A stretch of 64,000 bases of DNA from Acidobacteriota bacterium (GTDB lineage: Bacteria > Acidobacteriota > Thermoanaerobaculia > Multivoradales > Multivoraceae), in the NCBI GenBank assembly GCA_029263415.1, contig JAJCXN010000039.1, positions 124,001 through 188,000 of the forward strand. The letters run 5' to 3'. Under the pieces are notes generated by a model. It was not told the origin of the DNA, ran no database searches, and worked only from the letters and a program-made list of their open reading frames with translations. The position numbers were made by a program, and so were the translations under genes. Each line of letters begins with the position of its first letter. Position 1 is the stretch's first letter. Positions 7,634 through 30,762 of the stretch are shown here, piece by piece.

Positions 7634-9048
7634 CCGAGTACAGCGCCAAAAACGAGAGCGAGCGTGGCTTTCGAGAGCAGGCGGCGCGATTTGGGGCCAT
7701 GGCGGGGCACCGCGATAGCTGCTAAGGCTACTTCTGGTAGCTCTAGCGCGCCGCGTGCGAGCTCGGCCTGATTGTATTTTCCCGCCAGCTCTTCGAAGAG
7801 GCTTCGAGCGTTGGTCAGGTTACGGTCCGATTGAAGTAGGAACGTGTTGTGCTGCCGCTCCAAGGCCTGGATCTCTGCGGTTCGTTTGGAGCTGAGCTCC
7901 GCAAGCTCACGGGACCTTTGCATTTGGATCTCATCGTCCTGCTGGCTCCGCTCCGCGTAGAGTTGGAGCAGGCTGGCGGTGCGTTCTCGCTGAACCCTTT
8001 CCATTTCACCGGTAATACGACGCGCCACACCATCATGGCCTTTGGCCACCTGCTCCAGTTCCACTTCGAGATCGGAAAGCGCTTCGGTGAGCGTGGTGTA
8101 GACAGTGTTGATCGCTTGGCCTGGCAGAGTGGGCCGCGTCGCGGTTTCGAGATCCACAATCCCGTTTTGGCTAAGCAGCAAGGATTGCCACAGCGCATCG
8201 TTCGAGATGGCCTTCTCGAAAGACAGGAATTGCAATGTCTGCGCAAGCTGTATGCGAAGAGTCAAGATTTGGAGGAGTTGCGTCTCCACGTCTAGGCTCA
8301 GGCCGACCCGTTCGGTCGGTGGACCGACTCTCTGGCCTGCTGGTCCTGGTGCCGAGGTCGCTGCCAGACCCTGAAGGCGGGCGCTGTCTTCTATTGCACG
8401 CCGAGTCTCCAGCTGAAAGAGAGTCACCAGATCCTCGGTCTCAGCCTGAAACTCCACGAGCTTCCGGTCCCACGACACCGTGGCTCTGTCGATCCGGCGC
8501 CGCCATTCGACCTCGAGCTCAGTGACTTGGGCTTGAAAGCGGTTTTCGGATTCAAGGCGCTCGCCTTCGAGCAGTACGACTCTTTCATCGCTAGTTTGGT
8601 ACTGGGCCTCGACTAGATCAATGTTGGCGTTAGTGGTGTGATTCTGCAGCTGGTGGCTTCGACTAAGGAACACCTCTGCCCAGGTATTGGCAATGGCTGC
8701 GGCCTTCTCCGCGCTAGCGGCCTGGGCGATGAGCTCAATGACCGGCGCGAGAGTTGTGGCATCCGAACGTTGGGAGACGTAGATACGTGTTCGTAGCCCG
8801 TCACCGATGTCCAATCTTTCGTCATCCTGGCCCAATGTACCCTTGTCGATCAGCTGGGTGACAGTCTCGTCGATCAAGGCGTCGGATTCGAGCAGGCGCT
8901 GAAACCCCTGAATGCTCATGGCGGGCGGCAGAACTTCGGAGGACATGCTGCGAGGCGTCAAGACCAGGGTTGCGGACGCTTCGTATTTTGGCGATGTCAG
9001 AGCGATGACCGCAATTATCGTGATGGCGACCGCCGCGAGGCTTGTCAT
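7594..9048 (-). CDS. Wzz/GumC-like chain-length or export protein
   Basis: A protein of at least 484 residues with the polysaccharide co-polymerase layout: an N-terminal membrane helix (VAITIIAVIALTS), a Wzz-type segment (SPKYEASATLVLTPRSMSSE), a long periplasmic coiled-coil region (about 150-430, rich in Glu, Arg and Gln), and a C-terminal helix (KATLALVFGAVLGCMSAVL) after a Pro-containing patch. It would control chain length or export of the polymer made by the adjacent polymerase. The ATG at 9048 sits inside the first helix, and reading upstream in the same frame gives family-like sequence (GELSLTDLVAFYHRHWLLIA) without ATG, GTG or TTG before a stop near 9270. The true 5' end is therefore probably near 9190, with an unusual start or a frameshift. 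Confidence 0.78.
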   Translation of the reverse strand: MTSLAAVAITIIAVIALTSPKYEASATLVLTPRSMSSEVLPPAMSIQGFQRLLESDALIDETVTQLIDKGTLGQDDERLDIGDGLRTRIYVSQRSDATTLAPVIELIAQAASAEKAAAIANTWAEVFLSRSHQLQNHTTNANIDLVEAQYQTSDERVVLLEGERLESENRFQAQVTELEVEWRRRIDRATVSWDRKLVEFQAETEDLVTLFQLETRRAIEDSARLQGLAATSAPGPAGQRVGPPTERVGLSLDVETQLLQILTLRIQLAQTLQFLSFEKAISNDALWQSLLLSQNGIVDLETATRPTLPGQAINTVYTTLTEALSDLEVELEQVAKGHDGVARRITGEMERVQRERTASLLQLYAERSQQDDEIQMQRSRELAELSSKRTAEIQALERQHNTFLLQSDRNLTNARSLFEELAGKYNQAELARGALELPEVALAAIAVPRHGPKSRRLLSKATLALVFGAVLGCMSAVLREVKET

Positions 9049-9359
9049 CGCTATCAGGAGCCAATGTCGATGATAGAAAGCTACCAGGTCTGTCAGGCTG
9101 AGCTCACCTTCGCGCGGAGGTGGAGGGGTTGCGTTCTCGTCGGTGGATATAGGTTGCGAAATCGGGTGTTCCTCAGGATCTCTTGAGTCATTCGGGGAGA
9201 GTATTTGTGTAGGAGCGATTCTGACGCCGCGTATGAAGATTGTAAAGCCATGTTGCGCTGCGCTCGAATCTCACGGCGGCTGAGTCTGCGATGATTGCTG
9301 TCCTCGTACTCGACCAGGTCACACCAACCAAACTTCGACCTTCGTAGGAAGAATGTGCA

Positions 9360-11186
9360 ATGCCATTGCTGATCGTCCTCCTGGAACTGTTCATCGCCAC
9401 GCTCGCGATCTGGGTGCTCACATTCGAGGTGGCCATCTACTCTCAGATGTCCATCGTTTGGCTGGAGGTCTCGTTTCTTCTCTCGTGGACTCTCATGCTC
9501 GTGTTCCTGGCGAAGCCTTGGCTACAAAGGCTTCGTGTCATCGGCCGCGCCGAAAGAGTCTTCGCGCGCAACACGCTGATTGTCGGGTGCCTCGTCGGTC
9601 TGGTGGTGCTGGTTGCTTCTCGCCCAGATGCTGACGATGGCCCTTACATGCGCCAACTGCTGGTAGATGCCTCGACGCCAGGTGGCTCGTTCACCGCCAA
9701 CCCCTTTTATATCCCCTTTGGTGGAGAGCATATCGAAATCCCGTTCCTGTCAGAGAACGAGGCCTGGGAGGCGATGGTGGTGACCTTGGCCCATCTGTTG
9801 AGAATCGATCCATTGCAGGCCTACCACAACGTTTTCGCGTTCGGTGCCACGATCATCTGGGTCTTGACTTATGCGCTTCTGTTCCGGCGTTTTCGCGTAC
9901 CAAGAAACAAGGTCTGGCTCGCACTCGTGGTGACGGTCGTGTTCCTATTTCTTGACGGCAATCTCCATCGGTCGTTCGGTAACTTCAGCCTGATACGGAT
10001 CTGGCAGGGCAAGGTCATTGCTTGGGCGGTTCTTCAACCCGCTTTCTTGCTCTTCGCTCTGCGTTTCCTTGCCCGCCCGAATCGATATCGCTTCTCGCTA
10101 CTACTGGCAACTGGGGTGGTGAGCTTCTTCATCAACCGGTCGTCGATGTTCTTGTTTGCGGTGCTGGGGGCGGCCGTCGCGCTGAGCTATCTGCTCGCGT
10201 TCAAGCGGAATCGCCGGCGTCGCATGCGTGTCCTGGTGCCAATCTTCGCCGTCATTCCCCTCTGGCTTCTCGGCGCATACCTCGCGCTGTATGTGCTGCC
10301 GGCCGGCAGCTCTGTGTCGTCGGTGCTTTCTGACATGTCGGAAAGTGAAGCTGCTGCTGCTCTAAGCCAGAAGCGAATCACGCGTTCCTGGTGGACTTCG
10401 CTAGGAGGGCAGGTGATCGGGGGGCCCTTGACATTGTGGCGGGACGCTTTTTTCCTCACGGTAGTCCCATTGGTTACAGTTGCCCGCCCGCTGCATCGTT
10501 TTCTTCCCCTACTAAGTCTGTCTGTCGCGTTTCTCGCTCTCTCGCCGTTCACGGGGCCGACGTGGTTCTACTTTTTTCCAAAGGTTTATTGGCGCTTGTA
10601 CTACGCACTTCCACTTCCTCTTTGCGTGGGCTTATCCATCTGCTTGCTTTTGCCCTCACGTGCTGCGGGCCCGAGGCGCGTCACGAAGTTCGCCCTCGCC
10701 GCCGTCTTGGTGGTTTCAACGCTCTTGGCAGTTGAGGTTCCAGTCCTGTCCAAGGCCAACAGCGTGGATTTGAAGAGTCCCCTCGAGTATCGCTTTCCCG
10801 CTCAGCCGCTGGCCTTCGCCGAGTCGGTCGCGCCGCGCCTCGACGGGAAGCGCGTCTTGGCTCCAAGCGAGATCAGCAACATCTGGGCACTCACAGACTT
10901 CGCTTCCATCGAACTCTCGTATGGCCGAGTGGCCGGGAATGCGGCAAGGATGGCCAATCACTTGGTGAGCCAGTGCAAGGTCAATTCTCGGACTGTCCCT
11001 GGCATGCGTTTGTTGTTGCGTCGGGGAGTGGACGCGGTGGTCATGTCTTCTTGCTCCGGGCAGGTTATGAAAAGGCTCGGCAGACTTCTCCCCGAGTACC
11101 GGCTGGAGGAAGAGGAAGATGCGGCCGCTTTCGGTTACCGGCTCTATTGGGTAACAGGTCCTTCTGACCCCAGGCCTCTCATGTAG
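9360..11186 (+). CDS. Large polytopic membrane protein, GT-C/DUF6077-like
   Basis: A 608-residue protein with roughly 12 hydrophobic helices, the first starting at residue 2 (LLIVLLELFIATLAIWVL). A periplasm-side loop after helix 3 carries RPDADDGPYMRQLLVDAST, an acidic DxDD-type motif like the catalytic loop of GT-C glycosyltransferases, followed by FTANPFYIPFGGEHIEIP. The C-terminal 130 residues are soluble. This layout fits GT-C-like or DUF6077-type proteins that often accompany polysaccharide genes; lipid-linked sugar transfer is inference. AGGAAG lies 9 bases before the ATG. It is transcribed away from the Wzz-like gene, so the roughly 170 bases between them should hold divergent promoters. 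Confidence 0.72.
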   Translation: MPLLIVLLELFIATLAIWVLTFEVAIYSQMSIVWLEVSFLLSWTLMLVFLAKPWLQRLRVIGRAERVFARNTLIVGCLVGLVVLVASRPDADDGPYMRQLLVDASTPGGSFTANPFYIPFGGEHIEIPFLSENEAWEAMVVTLAHLLRIDPLQAYHNVFAFGATIIWVLTYALLFRRFRVPRNKVWLALVVTVVFLFLDGNLHRSFGNFSLIRIWQGKVIAWAVLQPAFLLFALRFLARPNRYRFSLLLATGVVSFFINRSSMFLFAVLGAAVALSYLLAFKRNRRRRMRVLVPIFAVIPLWLLGAYLALYVLPAGSSVSSVLSDMSESEAAAALSQKRITRSWWTSLGGQVIGGPLTLWRDAFFLTVVPLVTVARPLHRFLPLLSLSVAFLALSPFTGPTWFYFFPKVYWRLYYALPLPLCVGLSICLLLPSRAAGPRRVTKFALAAVLVVSTLLAVEVPVLSKANSVDLKSPLEYRFPAQPLAFAESVAPRLDGKRVLAPSEISNIWALTDFASIELSYGRVAGNAARMANHLVSQCKVNSRTVPGMRLLLRRGVDAVVMSSCSGQVMKRLGRLLPEYRLEEEEDAAAFGYRLYWVTGPSDPRPLM

Positions 11187-11787
11187 GATCTCTTCATTTT
11201 GAGGAGACCAAGTACGGCTTTCGTGACCTATCTGCGGGTCGTTCGGGAAACGGTACGTCCCGGGATGTTGAAGCTGGCCGAGGTGCTTCAAGAAGGGATC
11301 CAGCGGTCGCTGATGGTTAAGGCTCAGCGCAGCAAAAGGCCAATGGAAAGTGTGGTGGATCGTAGTTCGTGAGCCGCGGACTCTCCTCGTTGCCTTCCAA
11401 CAGGCTCTACGACGAGCATCAGGTTTGCCCGGGGCCGGATCAGCTGGAAACGCGGAAGATCGATGGACTCAGCCGAGATCCCCACACGATCCGTCACAAG
11501 ACTTCAAGTGCTGGGACTCGCGAAGCATCACTTTGTTGGATGCAAACAGCCAGTTGCTGCCACCATCTGAACCTCGCTAGATTGGCGCCGCTGATGCGCA
11601 CGCGGCCCACCGAATGAACACCTGAACATCTGTAGGAGAGACGTTGGCCGCAGTTGACGTGAGTCCCCACCGTGGGCGGTCGAGCACTGGCCTTGAGGAG
11701 GTCGCGAAGGTGGTGCTTCCGTCGGTTTCCAAGGAGAGCAGTCCTCGTGGCGCAGCCGTCGGTCCGAAAGGGACACCCTTAAGCGCA
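11187..11787. other. Non-coding stretch without recognisable gene
   Basis: About 600 bases between the GT-C-like gene and paired hairpins. Short open frames exist on both strands (for example one reading LAEVLQEGIQRSLMVKAQRS at about 11270-11330) but none has a recognisable domain or a convincing ribosome site. It may hold degraded coding sequence. Confidence 0.5.
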
Positions 11788-11816
11788 AATTCTCGGCAGC
11801 AATGCTGCCGAGAATT
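11788..11816. terminator. Perfect 13-bp hairpin, likely bidirectional terminator
   Basis: The arms AATTCTCGGCAGC and GCTGCCGAGAATT pair perfectly around a three-base loop. It lies 54 bases beyond the stop of the minus-strand tail-fibre-like gene. On the minus strand it is followed by TTGCGC with a short T run, so it is only a moderate intrinsic terminator; on the plus strand there is no T run. Confidence 0.55.
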
Positions 11817-11835
11817 CTCGTTTCGTGCGCCTTGC

Positions 11836-11857
11836 ACGGTGCTCCTAAGAGCACCGT
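11836..11857 (-). terminator. 9-bp hairpin downstream of the tail-fibre-like gene
   Basis: ACGGTGCTC and GAGCACCGT pair around the loop CTAA, 12 bases past the stop codon of the minus-strand gene. No clear U tract follows. Together with the larger hairpin at 11788 it probably ends or protects this transcript. Confidence 0.45.
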
Positions 11858-11869
11858 CATTACTGGTTT

Positions 11870-13459
11870 CTACGGCTCTGGGTTCGTGGCGGCCAAGGCT
11901 GCCTCCACCTTCGCAAGACGCCGGTGCATTTGCTCGATGTAGATGTGCGCCTTCTCTAGCTCGTTGAGCATGCGACCGGTCTTGTCAGTGAGGTTGATCG
12001 GACCGTTCTCGATCGTGGGACCGACCTCAGGGAGGTGGCGGTTCTGCCACATTGAGGCGGCGTGCTCCTCGATCGACGGCAGCTCATAGCCCGGGCTGAA
12101 GACCAGATCACAGCCGGAACCACAGGTCATGCCACCGGTTGTGATCGAACCCGCAAGAAAGGCGTCGCCATTCGGCAAGATCTCGAACTCATTCACACCA
12201 TCGTCGGTACCAGCGGCGTCGGTATCCGTGATCCGGTACCTTCCGGAGCCCGAAACGCGAGTCGACCAATTAACTCCGCCGGTTTGCGACAGGAGCAAGG
12301 AAACCACGTCGGTTCCGGCTCGCACAATATGGAGATCGGCATCCGGACTAGCAGAGCCAAGACCTACATCGCCATCGACGTCAATGAAGATTGAACTGGT
12401 CGGGGCGCCCGGGCGGATCCGGAAAGGCAGAGCTGATCCGTTGGTGACGTCACGCAGGAAGAAGTTGGTCTCGTTGCCAGCCACGTCCCAGGTTTGCGGA
12501 GCAAATCCTGAACTACCGTCCTGTTGCAGACGGAGTGTCGGCGTGTCTCCATCAATGGTGTGAATCTCGGTTGCTGGCGTGCTGGTGCGGTTGCCAATGC
12601 GGCCGCCATCGTCGACATAAAGAGAGTGGCTGCGCGCGTTTGCTTCGACAGTGAAGGGCGTGCGGTTGCCAGAGATGTCGTCGATCGAGAACTTGCTGGC
12701 GCCGCCGTTGGCGCTGTCGTTGGCGGTGAGCTGCCAGTCATTGCGCGGGAAGCTAGCGGCAACGGAGGTGTCGTCGAACTTGATCCGAAGGTTGTTCTCT
12801 TTGACCCGGATGGTGTCAAATCCGAAGACCTCGCCGTTGACGCAGTCGAAGCCGATGCAGGCGCTGCCATCAACGATCAAGTCGTCGTTGATCACAAAGT
12901 CCCTCAGGACCACGCCGGTGATGCCGTCGTTGCCACCCTGGCCTGTGGTGGGCAAAGCTCGCGAGACCATGTTCGCTGTGGGGTTCCCTTCCTCTTCCAG
13001 GTCCGTCTTGTAGACGAACTTTCCGTTGACTACTTGGAAGTAGCCTTGGTCCGCCAATGTGGCTCGGACAATGCCCTCTCGTCTGAGCTCCTTGATTTCC
13101 ATCGGGTCGTTCCGCTTGCGCGCGCTCGCCAAGATTTCTTGGTCGCGAGAACTCAAGATCGGACGGAAAGTCACCTTGTACTTGTATTGCCCGTCGGGGA
13201 CTAAGTTGCCTTGCGGATCAAAGATCTTGAAAACGCCGGGTTCGCGCTCTTTGAAGTCGCGCTCGAGGTAGCAGTCTTCTGGGCCTGAGACGGTGAGGGT
13301 CGTTTCTCCGCGCTCAAGCTCTTCCAGTGGGATGAAGTACACGGCATCTGGTTCGATCTGAACATCGACGACGCTGTTGGTGCTTGGTGCTGCGAACGCG
13401 ACGGTTGCAAAGAGAAGCGTCAGTAGTCCGACGACTCCCCTGAAGAGCTGTTGCTTCAT
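11870..13459 (-). CDS. Secreted tail-fibre-like protein with S74-like C-terminal region
   Basis: A 529-residue exported protein with a signal peptide (VVGLLTLLFATVAFAAPS, cleavage near residue 23). An N-terminal beta domain (residues 25-170, VYFIPLEELERGETTLTVSG) is followed by a long low-complexity beta region rich in Gly, Asp and Thr with short repeated units such as ATEIHTIDGDTPTLRLQQDG and DADLHIVRAGTDVVSLLLSQ, as in fibre shafts. The last 80 residues contain LPSIEEHAASMWQNRHLPEV and INLTDKTGRMLNELEKAHIY then a heptad helix, resembling the trimerising C-terminal region of tail-fibre/S74 proteins in its non-cleaving variety. It may form a trimeric cell-surface or extracellular fibre. No phage genes are nearby. 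Surface role is inference. Confidence 0.7.
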   Translation of the reverse strand: MKQQLFRGVVGLLTLLFATVAFAAPSTNSVVDVQIEPDAVYFIPLEELERGETTLTVSGPEDCYLERDFKEREPGVFKIFDPQGNLVPDGQYKYKVTFRPILSSRDQEILASARKRNDPMEIKELRREGIVRATLADQGYFQVVNGKFVYKTDLEEEGNPTANMVSRALPTTGQGGNDGITGVVLRDFVINDDLIVDGSACIGFDCVNGEVFGFDTIRVKENNLRIKFDDTSVAASFPRNDWQLTANDSANGGASKFSIDDISGNRTPFTVEANARSHSLYVDDGGRIGNRTSTPATEIHTIDGDTPTLRLQQDGSSGFAPQTWDVAGNETNFFLRDVTNGSALPFRIRPGAPTSSIFIDVDGDVGLGSASPDADLHIVRAGTDVVSLLLSQTGGVNWSTRVSGSGRYRITDTDAAGTDDGVNEFEILPNGDAFLAGSITTGGMTCGSGCDLVFSPGYELPSIEEHAASMWQNRHLPEVGPTIENGPINLTDKTGRMLNELEKAHIYIEQMHRRLAKVEAALAATNPEP

Positions 13460-26825: not shown

Positions 26826-27575
26826 ATGACCCTAGATAACGACGCAGACCTACAAGCTCTCAAGGAGATTGGGGGCATCGTTGCGCGCTGCCTTCGCTAT
26901 ATGGGTGAGAGGCTCGAGCCGGGAATCACCACCCTTGAGCTCGACAAACTGGGTGAGAAATTCCTCGAGGATCATGGCGCCCAGTCGGCACCGCGAACCA
27001 TGTATGACTTTCCAGGTGGCACCTGCATTTCGGTCAACGAAGAAGTCGCTCACGGGATCCCTGGAGAGCGTCGCATTGGTGCAACAGATCTCGTGCACAT
27101 CGACGTTTCAGCGGTCAAGGACGGCTACTACGGGGATTGCGGCGCAAGCTTTGCGATGGATCCAGACAACGAGCTGGATCGACGGATCTGTCAGGCGACC
27201 CGTAAGGCGCTGCGCGAGGCGATGCGTCGAGCTCGCGCTGGCCGGCCTATTCGGGGCGTTGGCAAGGCGATGGAAACGGTTGCTAGGCGGGCTGGTTTTG
27301 GCGTGATTCGCAACCTTGGGTCGCACGGTCTCGGTCGCTCGTTGCACGAGGAACCGACCTTTGTGCCCGGTTTCGATGACAAGAACGAGGGTCGCAAGTT
27401 CACCAATGGCATGGTGCTAACGCTCGAACCGTTTCTGACCACCGGTCGCCAGCAAGCGGAGACCGCTGAGGATGGTTGGACGCTCTACAACATCGACGGT
27501 TCTCGCACCGCGCAGTTCGAGCACACCATTGTGGTCACCAAGTCGCAACCGATCGTCCTCACTAACCCGAGGTGA
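26826..27575 (+). CDS. map: Methionine aminopeptidase, type I
   Basis: A 249-residue cytoplasmic metalloaminopeptidase that removes initiator methionine. Family landmarks are VNEEVAHGIPG (catalytic His, about residue 76), DLVHIDVSAV and GYYGDCG (metal Asp residues about 93 and 104), GSHGLGRSLHEEP (His), LTLEPF (Glu) and QFEHTIVVT (Glu). It lacks an N-terminal zinc-finger extension. The stop overlaps the next start by GTGA, coupling it to the phosphoglucose-isomerase-type gene, an unusual partner. Confidence 0.96.
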   Translation: MTLDNDADLQALKEIGGIVARCLRYMGERLEPGITTLELDKLGEKFLEDHGAQSAPRTMYDFPGGTCISVNEEVAHGIPGERRIGATDLVHIDVSAVKDGYYGDCGASFAMDPDNELDRRICQATRKALREAMRRARAGRPIRGVGKAMETVARRAGFGVIRNLGSHGLGRSLHEEPTFVPGFDDKNEGRKFTNGMVLTLEPFLTTGRQQAETAEDGWTLYNIDGSRTAQFEHTIVVTKSQPIVLTNPR

Positions 27576-29527
27576 TCGAACGACTATCAGCGGTTGCGGC
27601 CAGGTGCGGTGCGTCCGAAGTTGGTGAGCTTAATGAGCAACACTTGTTGCTCGATGGCAGCGCACGCAATGAACTCGCGCAGGGGCTAGGGAGCTGGCAG
27701 GCCGCCAACGGCACCGAGCGGCTGTGGAGTGGTGATGCGTCGCTGTGGACTGATGCGGATGAGTCGAAGTGGGTGGGCTGGCTGAGCCTGGTGGCTGAGT
27801 TCTTCGAAGACGAGCAGGAAGCGCCGCTAAGAGAGATAGCGCTTGAGATCGATGCCGAATTGGGCATGGAGCCACCTGAGGGCGCAGTACCGGATGGGCC
27901 GCCGGATGCACTTCCGGACGGGCCGCCCGCTGCGCCGCACGCCGTACTGCCGGACACACTGCCCGGCGCTCTGCCCGGCGAGGTGGCGGTCGATAGCCCG
28001 TGCAAACCAGCGGCGGTGGTGTTGTTGGGTATGGGTGGGTCGAGCCTCGGCCCGGAAGTGCTCGCTCGCACTTTGGCCGCGCAACGCCCATTGTTTGTGC
28101 TCGACACAACCGACCCGAGCCACATCGCCCGAGTGGAGGCCGAACTCGACTTTGCTCGCACGGTGTTTGTGGTGTCGAGCAAATCGGGAACCACCCTCGA
28201 GACCAGCCTGCTGTTTGACTACTTCTACGCCAAGGTCGCTTTGCAAATGGGAGAAGACCGGGCAGGGCACTTCTTTGTTGCGGTCACTGATCGTGGCTCG
28301 AAGCTCGCAGCGCTCGCCATTGAACGCAACCTGCGCGCGTGTTTTTGGGGCAAGGAGTCAGTCGGCGGTCGATTCTCGGTGCTGTCGAACTTCGGCCTAG
28401 TTCCGGCCGCTCTTGCTGGCATTGATTCCGCTCGACTGATGCAGGCCGCGATGCCGATGGTGATTGCTTGTGCCCAAGACACCCCAGGTGACAATCCAGC
28501 GGTAGCCCTCGGTATCGTGTTGGCGCAAGCTGCTCAGCGTGGTCGAGACAAAGTCACCATCTTCGGTAGCGAATCGCTAGCCGCCTTTGGCGCCTGGGCC
28601 GATCAGTTGCTTGCCGAATCGACCGGCAAGGACGGAAAGGGATTGATCCCGATCGATCTTGAGGGGCCCTTAGCGGCCACACTCTATGGCGACGATCGTC
28701 TGTTCGTGTCGATTGAACTCGTTGACCGAGACGCACAGGTGGAACCCGAAGACGATCCCGAACAGGTCGATCTCGACGCTCGGATTCAAGCGCTGGTAGA
28801 GGCTGGTCACCCGGTGATCCGCGTCATCGTGCACGACGAGTACGCCATCACTCAAGAGTTCTTTAGGTGGCAGTTTGCCACCGCCGTCGCGAGTTCTTTG
28901 CTTGGGGTGCATCCGTTTGGTCAGCCCGATGTCGAAGGCAGCAAGGTTGAGTCACGCCGGCTCTCCGACGCTTTCGAGGCAACCGGTGCGCTGCCTTACG
29001 AAGAACCTTTTGTCGAAGGCACAACATCGTTGCTATTCGCCGATCCCGAGAACCAAAAGCGCCTGTTGACGCCGGGTGATGCCACGGTTAGCGAAACTTT
29101 GACCGCACATTTGGGTCGGATCGAACCCGGTGACTACTTTGCGATCCTGGCCTACATGGATCGCAACGTTGAACTCACCGAGTTCCTACAGTCGATGCGT
29201 CGTAAAGTGGCACAGCACTTCGGAGTAGCGACCTGCCTTGGCTTCGGTCCGCGGTTTCTGCACTCCACGGGACAAGTGTACAAGGGTGGTCCGAACAGTG
29301 GTGTGTTTGTTCAGATCACCCACGAAGAGAACGCGGAACTCGAGATCCCTGGGCACGGGTTCTCTTTCGGAACTGCCAAGGCAGCGCAGGCTCGTGGTGA
29401 CTACGAGGTGATGGCCAGACGCGGGCGACGATTGCTGCGGATCCACTACAAGGGGAAGCTGGTGGCTGGGCTGCAACGACTTGATGGACTTGTGGGGCGC
29501 TCGTTGCACAGCCTGGGCTCCGACTAG
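27572..29527 (+). CDS. pgi: Glucose-6-phosphate isomerase family protein
   Basis: A 651-residue SIS-fold protein. VVLLGMGGSSLGPEVLA (about residue 150), VFVVSSKSGTTLETSLLF, and LLAESTGKDGKGLIP are the glucose-6-phosphate isomerase-type motifs; the form resembles the isomerase half of fused transaldolase/isomerase proteins rather than classical PGI. It would interconvert glucose-6-P and fructose-6-P. A Pro/Ala/Gly low-complexity insert of about 40 residues (residues 97-137, PDGPP and ALPG units) separates the N-terminal helices from the SIS core. It starts with GTG inside the map stop. The isomerase activity is supported by family but specificity is not proven. Confidence 0.85.
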   Translation: MIERLSAVAARCGASEVGELNEQHLLLDGSARNELAQGLGSWQAANGTERLWSGDASLWTDADESKWVGWLSLVAEFFEDEQEAPLREIALEIDAELGMEPPEGAVPDGPPDALPDGPPAAPHAVLPDTLPGALPGEVAVDSPCKPAAVVLLGMGGSSLGPEVLARTLAAQRPLFVLDTTDPSHIARVEAELDFARTVFVVSSKSGTTLETSLLFDYFYAKVALQMGEDRAGHFFVAVTDRGSKLAALAIERNLRACFWGKESVGGRFSVLSNFGLVPAALAGIDSARLMQAAMPMVIACAQDTPGDNPAVALGIVLAQAAQRGRDKVTIFGSESLAAFGAWADQLLAESTGKDGKGLIPIDLEGPLAATLYGDDRLFVSIELVDRDAQVEPEDDPEQVDLDARIQALVEAGHPVIRVIVHDEYAITQEFFRWQFATAVASSLLGVHPFGQPDVEGSKVESRRLSDAFEATGALPYEEPFVEGTTSLLFADPENQKRLLTPGDATVSETLTAHLGRIEPGDYFAILAYMDRNVELTEFLQSMRRKVAQHFGVATCLGFGPRFLHSTGQVYKGGPNSGVFVQITHEENAELEIPGHGFSFGTAKAAQARGDYEVMARRGRRLLRIHYKGKLVAGLQRLDGLVGRSLHSLGSD

Positions 29528-29727: not shown

Positions 29728-30762
29728 ATGGTCTTGTCGATCTCACTAATCATGCTTGTTGTATCTAGCGCTTGCACTTCGGTGATGCCCTTGTTGCTTT
29801 CTCCTGAGGCTGCGCAGGGCTCGCGAGCGGCGGCCATGCCCGGTGGCTCCAGGACACCCCGACAGGCGTCAGCCGAATGGCCCGCTCACCCGGTAGCGGT
29901 TGAACGTGCGTTCCGGGCGCCGTTGATCGCACGAACCATGCGGGATGTTCAACATGGTCGGACCAACACCAAGAGAGTCGAGGTCCACTCGCCATCGGAG
30001 GGTTTCTCCTTCGATGTCAAGTGGAAGCCGGCGAGAGCGTCCCTTGATGGGATCAACAACTCACCGCGTCGCGAGGTGGCTGCCTATGAATTGCAGCGGA
30101 TAGTGCTCGAGCCAGAAGACTATGTAGTGCCAACTACCTCGATCGTTTGCTGGCCAATGGATGCCATCTCCGGCGGTGTTCTGGGAGAACCCAACATCGC
30201 GGGCGCCGACTGTGTGGTCGGATCCATTTCGGTGTGGCTTCGCGACCTTGCCTACCCATCAAGGAAAGTCGATTGGGACCGATTTCAGCAAGATCCTTGG
30301 TACGCGTATCACTCGGCGGACCTGAACCTGGTCGCCATTCTCTTGGATCACAGCGACACGCACACTCGCAACCTGCTGGTTGCTGAGGCTCCGTCTTCCC
30401 CGCGGATCTACTCGATCGACAACGGCATTTCGTTCAACCATTGGTTCCGCAGCCCCTTCTCTCGCGATTGGAATCGACTTCGAGTTCCTGGCCTTCGGGC
30501 GGAAACTGTGAAGCGACTGAAACGGCTCTCTCGTCGAGACCTAGACTACCTTCGGGTTGTGGCCCAACTGCAGGTCGACGGTTCGGGTGGGTATCGCGTA
30601 ACCACTCCGAGCGCGCCGCTGGCGGGCGCGAGTCCGGTTCGGATGGATATTGAGGATGGCATTGTGCAGTTTGGCCTAACGGAGTCTGAAATCGAAGGAA
30701 TCTGGCGTCGCACCCGACAACTGTTGCGCCTAGTTGAAGCGGAGCAGATTCCAGTTTTCTGA
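29728..30762 (+). CDS. Exported kinase-like (Fam20/PI3K-like) protein
   Basis: A 344-residue protein that begins with a hydrophobic signal ending at a Cys (LVVSSAC, residue 16; -3 Ser is off lipobox consensus). Downstream is a kinase-like order: FDVKWKPA (candidate ATP-lysine about residue 98 or 100), NSPRREVAAYELQRIVLEPE (Glu about 116 on the next helix), NLVAILLDHSDTHTRNLLVA (D...D.H..N, residues 207-215), and IYSIDNGISFNHW (Asp about 231, in place of DFG). This fits secreted Fam20/HipA/PI3K-type kinases and not classical Hanks kinases. Substrate is unknown. ATG at 29728 is chosen because it begins the signal peptide; in-frame sequence continues upstream to about 29596. Kinase activity is inferred. 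Confidence 0.65.
   Translation: MVLSISLIMLVVSSACTSVMPLLLSPEAAQGSRAAAMPGGSRTPRQASAEWPAHPVAVERAFRAPLIARTMRDVQHGRTNTKRVEVHSPSEGFSFDVKWKPARASLDGINNSPRREVAAYELQRIVLEPEDYVVPTTSIVCWPMDAISGGVLGEPNIAGADCVVGSISVWLRDLAYPSRKVDWDRFQQDPWYAYHSADLNLVAILLDHSDTHTRNLLVAEAPSSPRIYSIDNGISFNHWFRSPFSRDWNRLRVPGLRAETVKRLKRLSRRDLDYLRVVAQLQVDGSGGYRVTTPSAPLAGASPVRMDIEDGIVQFGLTESEIEGIWRRTRQLLRLVEAEQIPVF

Follow-up and report, generated by a model that had tools for sequence, protein, structure and literature searches.

A predicted exported bacterial protein family with a Fam20/PI4K-II-like kinase fold, recurrently encoded near NTT-family transporter genes

The kinase-like gene lies at positions 29728..30762 on the + strand of the window, by which we mean the whole 64,000-nucleotide stretch of Acidobacteriota DNA analysed here. 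Its open reading frame encodes 344 amino acids from the ATG, and the product is a predicted exported, Fam20/PI4K-II-like kinase. In-frame starts also occur upstream of ATG 29728, reaching back to 29596, and the start codon of the gene is therefore uncertain. VTT and patatin genes adjoin it. Just upstream, at 27572-29527, the window encodes a 651-aa protein with a phosphoglucose isomerase domain over residues 148-354; its residues outside that range gave no Pfam match. A contaminating or recently acquired gene was considered, but the GC content of the kinase-like gene (58.5%) agrees with that of the window (59.6%). A genome search found a single copy in the source genome and none in the other 148 genomes searched in the source organism's class, an absence that may reflect lateral transfer, or loss elsewhere.

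Queried alone, the window protein gave no match in Pfam, NCBIfam, PDB sequences, plasmids or phages, nor did an initial contig scan with this single sequence. Among 396 genomes searched in the phylum there was one clear relative, in genome G156 of another class, which is 45% identical over the core; the other sub-threshold matches were mostly chance, and only the G156 match was accepted as real. An alignment of these two proteins retrieved 13 more loci, mostly from Deltaproteobacteria or Myxococcota MAGs, and whole-genome searches of two classes placed the family in 22 of 90 and 9 of 148 genomes, respectively. Viral contigs searched with the pair and family alignments held no relatives. The resulting family alignment comprises 37 members, and the neighbour counts given below refer to 35 kinase loci.

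Across the 37 members, none was seen to exceed a kinase-family cut-off in Pfam or NCBIfam, which, judged by sequence profiles, makes this previously undescribed group a separate family within the kinase-like fold. Weak likeness was nevertheless found to three families. Weak matches to PI3_PI4_kinase (PF00454) occur in 23 of 37 members, over the catalytic loop, with a best E of 2.2e-4; the member at L003 scores 20.8 bits against a cut-off of 27.1. The SCO1664 family (TIGR03843), actinobacterial PI3K-like proteins of unknown function, is matched weakly by 14 of 37 (best E 0.0012), the shared part presumably being the catalytic region. Fam20C (PF06702) is matched, below cut-off and with a best E of 0.03, by only four, a negligible sequence match. 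The window protein itself matches neither SCO1664 nor Fam20C. The family profile run against PDB sequences gave chance-level matches only.

Conservation within the family takes in the positions expected of a kinase. In window numbering, K98, N110, R114, E116, Q123, C162, W170, R185, N200, D210, N215, D231 and N232 are invariant (37/37), and K100 and C141 are each kept in 36/37. At the sequence level, the residues expected of the protein kinase-like (PKL) superfamily (ATP-site Lys, C-helix Glu, catalytic Asp and Asn, metal Asp) are thus kept in every member. The position of the glycine-rich loop (29947..29973, +) reads AGxGVTGAxK in the family, of which the window protein keeps only G77, a residue invariant in 37/37. 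It is followed by K98-W99-K100 (30019..30027, +), holding the candidate ATP-binding lysine or lysines, and by D107-G-x-N-N-S-P-R-x-E116 (30046..30075, +) at the start of the C-helix, in which D107 is kept in 32/37 members and E116 is the candidate ion-pair glutamate. Further on, the window motifs LLDHSDTHTRN and YSIDNG are both present. The first contains the putative catalytic loop D210-THTR-N215 (30355..30372, +), which reads DGRxGN in the family, with R at 212 in 35/37 and G at 214 in 33/37, so that the window copy carries R212H and G214R; the second contains D231-N232-G233 (30418..30426, +), a candidate metal-binding (DFG-like) motif. D210 stands five residues ahead of N215 and 21 ahead of D231.

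The original prediction, made from the window sequence alone, had proposed an exported protein with the motif order of a Fam20/PI3K-like kinase. Its motifs were recovered in the order claimed (K98/K100, E116, LLDHSDTHTRN, YSIDNG), and they exceed chance because K98, E116, D210, N215, D231 and N232 are invariant in the 37 family members. Its assignment of Asp207 as the catalytic residue did not survive alignment: that position is Asp in only 18/37 members, whereas Asp210 is Asp in 37/37. Nor did the D...D.H..N reading of the loop built on Asp207, since residue 212, a histidine in the window, is R in 35/37; the loop is D210-x4-N215.

A single-sequence AlphaFold2 prediction of the window protein reached a pLDDT of only 35, and the protein was therefore modelled from the 37-sequence family alignment, with a pLDDT of 84 and a pTM of 0.84. 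The bilobal kinase core, for which structure prediction had been suggested as a check, is present in this predicted fold, whose best PDB matches span 230-256 residues. K98 lies on the third strand (K98-W99-K100 being at model residues 78-86) and E116 on the next helix (model residues 98-111), while D210 and D231 fall in the expected loop regions of the C-lobe. In a Foldseek search of the PDB, the top two matches were Fam20C1 (E 5.9e-6) and PI4KII-alpha (E 6.2e-6). VIA-align ranked hydra Fam20 highest, with a Z of 16.6 over 249 residues at 3.9 A, other Fam20 chains scoring 15.5-16.3 and PI4K-II structures 14.9-15.8, PI4KII-beta being the 15.8; the score drops to about 9.5 for the next PI3K-type kinases (Vps34, ATR). 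PI4K-II and some Fam20 chains thus differ by less than 1 Z unit, and the model supports a fold closest to Fam20 with PI4K-II nearly tied, in agreement with the fold originally proposed.

The two closest relatives in fold differ from the family in other respects. Like Fam20 (Fam20A/B/C, hydra, C. elegans), which works outside the cytosol, the family keeps the series Lys, Glu, Asp...Asn and Asp. The present family, however, is bacterial, whereas a kinase-family survey (PMC9758233) gives Fam20 as specific to eukaryotes or Metazoa, and it has two conserved cysteines where Fam20 has four conserved disulfides (PMC5865150). Type II phosphatidylinositol 4-kinases share the fold and the weak PF00454 matches, but the family is predicted to be exported and has no conserved link to lipid genes; to our knowledge, the known PI4-kinases are not exported. 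HipA kinases have a broad kinase fold and the same D...N / D motif order as the family. HipA, which the original prediction offered for superposition, was nevertheless not a close match: no HipA_C (Pfam) match was found among the 37 members at E <= 1, the family is predicted to be exported, and no HipB-like partner was seen by inspection rather than by profile search. A HipA-type toxin was dropped as a candidate on the HipA_C result.

The exported character of the protein was borne out across the family as a sequence prediction. In the window copy, a hydrophobic N-terminus (29728..29775, +) ends at Cys16 in a lipobox-like VSSAC|T sequence (the region reads LVVSSAC) that is non-canonical at -3. 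Among the 37 N-termini, 26 have a cysteine just after the hydrophobic stretch and nine are signal-like without it, the remaining two being truncated or masked; this supports an export signal, usually with a lipobox, in nearly all members. The two nearly invariant cysteines, Cys141 (30148..30150, +) and Cys162 (30211..30213, +), are proposed to form a disulfide, and the conserved pair fits a location outside the cytoplasm.

Within the family, the window copy is divergent and isolated, on a branch of length 1.63 in the kinase tree. Its long branch, together with the degenerate glycine loop and the lost catalytic-loop residues seen in the 37-member alignment, suggests that its activity could be altered or lost.

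Gene neighbourhoods across the 35 kinase loci gave a picture different from that of the window. VTT and patatin genes recur at none of the other 34 kinase loci, which undoes the argument from lipid-related neighbours in the original prediction, and a lipid-pathway role based on them was dropped. A search for conserved neighbours instead brought out nucleotide transporters and exported ATP-using enzymes. NTT-family genes are found at 15/35 loci, on the same strand as the kinase gene, divergent or convergent, and often with a gap of less than 50 nt. Several of these NTT neighbours score above the Pfam cut-off for TLC ATP/ADP transporters, and their profile run against the PDB matched ADP,ATP carriers exclusively (E 1e-23 and 7e-20); their TIGR00769 scores, at 19-67 bits, are far under the cut-off of 387. 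An NTT match was present in 23/30 genomes with the kinase versus 5/30 without it (p 6e-6, with kinship ignored), and an exported PPDK in 23/30 versus 8/30 (p 2e-4, likewise with kinship ignored). The loci linked to NTT or partner genes are clustered, yet scattered over several parts of the kinase tree and not confined to one.

Nine loci also carry an exported PPDK_N protein of about 1000 aa together with a beta-lactamase2-like partner. Such ATP-grasp proteins, with signal-like N-termini, are encoded at L098:13167-16109, L100:5134-8109, L101:10686-13616, L106:3135-6164 and L107:10550-13600, and the L098 protein has a PEP-utiliser domain as well. Three genomes encode fusions in which a beta-lactamase2 domain (PF13354) precedes the kinase domain (L038:4870-6804, L043:4831-6771 and L086/L106:1084-3132), and the beta-lactamase-like part of each fusion has a signal-like N-terminus of its own; in a fourth genome, at L107, the two are separate genes overlapping by 4 nt. 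At three loci (L040:5800-8192, L091:7526-9906 and L097:7118-9747), the kinase gene shares about 4 nt with the gene of an exported calcineurin-like phosphoesterase, a possible kinase and phosphatase pair. Members in the PPDK/beta-lactamase-like context are mostly without a lipobox Cys and most other members have one (loci compared: L097, L040 and L091 versus L098, L100, L101, L107 and others), a sequence difference that may correspond to different final locations.

The window neighbourhood has no NTT, PPDK, beta-lactamase-like or phosphoesterase partner, so that what we say of ATP supply rests on the family and not on the window locus. The source genome does encode one NTT-HEAT gene (PF03219, 42.6 bits), unlinked to the kinase gene and with a cNMP-binding gene directly after it (both at L111, G000:C55:126000-145500, 8988-12428); no exported PPDK was found in that genome.

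We consider it probable, with room for doubt, that the family consists of exported, probably lipid-anchored phosphotransferases of Fam20/PI4K-II fold that act on envelope substrates with ATP from NTT proteins. This proposal starts from computed results (a family with invariant residues, a predicted fold, export signals and gene linkage) and extends by inference to catalysis, substrate, the direction of ATP movement and the use of NTT-HEAT by the window copy. The protein would be exported, probably lipid-anchored, and active beyond the inner membrane. Its ATP would lie between the two lobes, bound through K98 in a pair with E116, with D210 and N215 making up the catalytic loop and D231 coordinating the metal. 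The substrate would be an envelope macromolecule, protein or glycan, phosphorylated with ATP. The linkage to NTT genes elsewhere in the family suggests the ATP source of such an extracytoplasmic kinase: the ATP/ADP exchangers encoded next door would supply the periplasm, and the window copy would depend on the unlinked NTT-HEAT gene at L111. The NTTs that have been characterised in parasites import ATP, and movement of ATP outward is an assumption here. More tentatively, as a scheme that is plausible but could easily be wrong, we suggest that free-living bacteria have an ATP-dependent extracytoplasmic phosphorylation system, in which NTT exports ATP, Fam20-like kinases and PPDK-type dikinases modify the envelope, and phosphoesterase and beta-lactamase-like partners join in.

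One rival reading concerns the ATP supply. The kinase may be real while its NTT-like neighbours share the carrier fold and move something other than ATP, which would make the supply step wrong. The low TIGR00769 scores favour this, as does the lack, as far as Major et al. 2017 (PMC5381601) report, of any characterised NTT from a free-living bacterium; yet the PDB matches are to ADP,ATP carriers exclusively, several neighbours exceed the Pfam TLC cut-off, and the same genes also lie beside that of another ATP user, the exported ATP-grasp dikinase. We regard a non-ATP substrate as doubtful, though a serious contender. Doubt of another kind attaches to the catalytic step. Kinase-fold proteins with other activities are known, such as SidJ and SelO, and the family, or at least the window copy with its long branch, R212H, G214R and degenerate glycine loop, might be a pseudokinase or catalyse something else, for instance AMP transfer or glutamylation. 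Against this stand the residues expected for ATP, metal and catalysis, all invariant in 37/37 with the window protein included, and we think a loss or change of reaction unlikely.

A PI4K-II-like lipid kinase acting on a membrane lipid would account for the near tie in fold (Z 15.8 versus 16.6), for the VTT and patatin genes beside the window copy and for a lipid anchor, which would put the protein at the membrane. The absence of VTT and patatin from every other kinase locus, and the recurrence of other partner genes (NTT, PPDK-type, beta-lactamase-like and phosphoesterase), make this quite unlikely. Finally, the uncertain start codon, with longer in-frame starts available, would allow the hydrophobic N-terminus to be misread and the protein to be cytoplasmic. 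We hold this to be highly improbable, as nearly all members have a hydrophobic stretch, in differing sequence forms, ahead of the conserved core, and in the three fusions the beta-lactamase-like domain in front has its own signal-like N-terminus.

If the preferred reading of an exported, ATP-using kinase holds, it bears on a known puzzle. Little or no ATP is believed to be present in the periplasm, which makes bacterial phosphorylation outside the cytoplasm hard to explain. A Fam20-like fold, an export signal and linkage to ATP/ADP exchangers together make the question of extracytoplasmic ATP testable, and the NTT neighbours may be the means by which an extracytoplasmic kinase obtains its ATP. 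The reading further suggests a first role for the NTT transporters of free-living bacteria, and, if true, an extracytoplasmic phosphorylation system would explain the NTT proteins of free-living, Deltaproteobacteria-type bacteria. Major et al. 2017 (PMC5381601) left NTT function in such bacteria open and noted NTT-HEAT-cNBD fusions. Both NTT-HEAT and NTT-HEAT-cNBD forms occur among the recurrent neighbours of the present family, but kinases are not mentioned in that paper (PF03219; PMC5381601). A literature search that covered neither most subscription journals nor any preprints returned nothing that connects NTT transporters with an exported kinase of bacteria, so a kinase partner for NTT is new within the literature searched. 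The bacterial Fam20-like fold bears, in addition, on the origin of animal secretory kinases, although a shared fold alone does not establish descent.

In genomes G517, G529 and G533, where no kinase was found, the gene of the exported PPDK_N protein still lies at most a few kb from an NTT gene, which suggests that NTT and the exported dikinase may be a core pair of their own. At L124 (G544:C362:20000-39500), a long NTT gene, a PPDK gene, a beta-lactamase-like gene and an NTT gene form a cluster without a kinase gene, and the kinase copy of that genome, G544, lies on a different contig.
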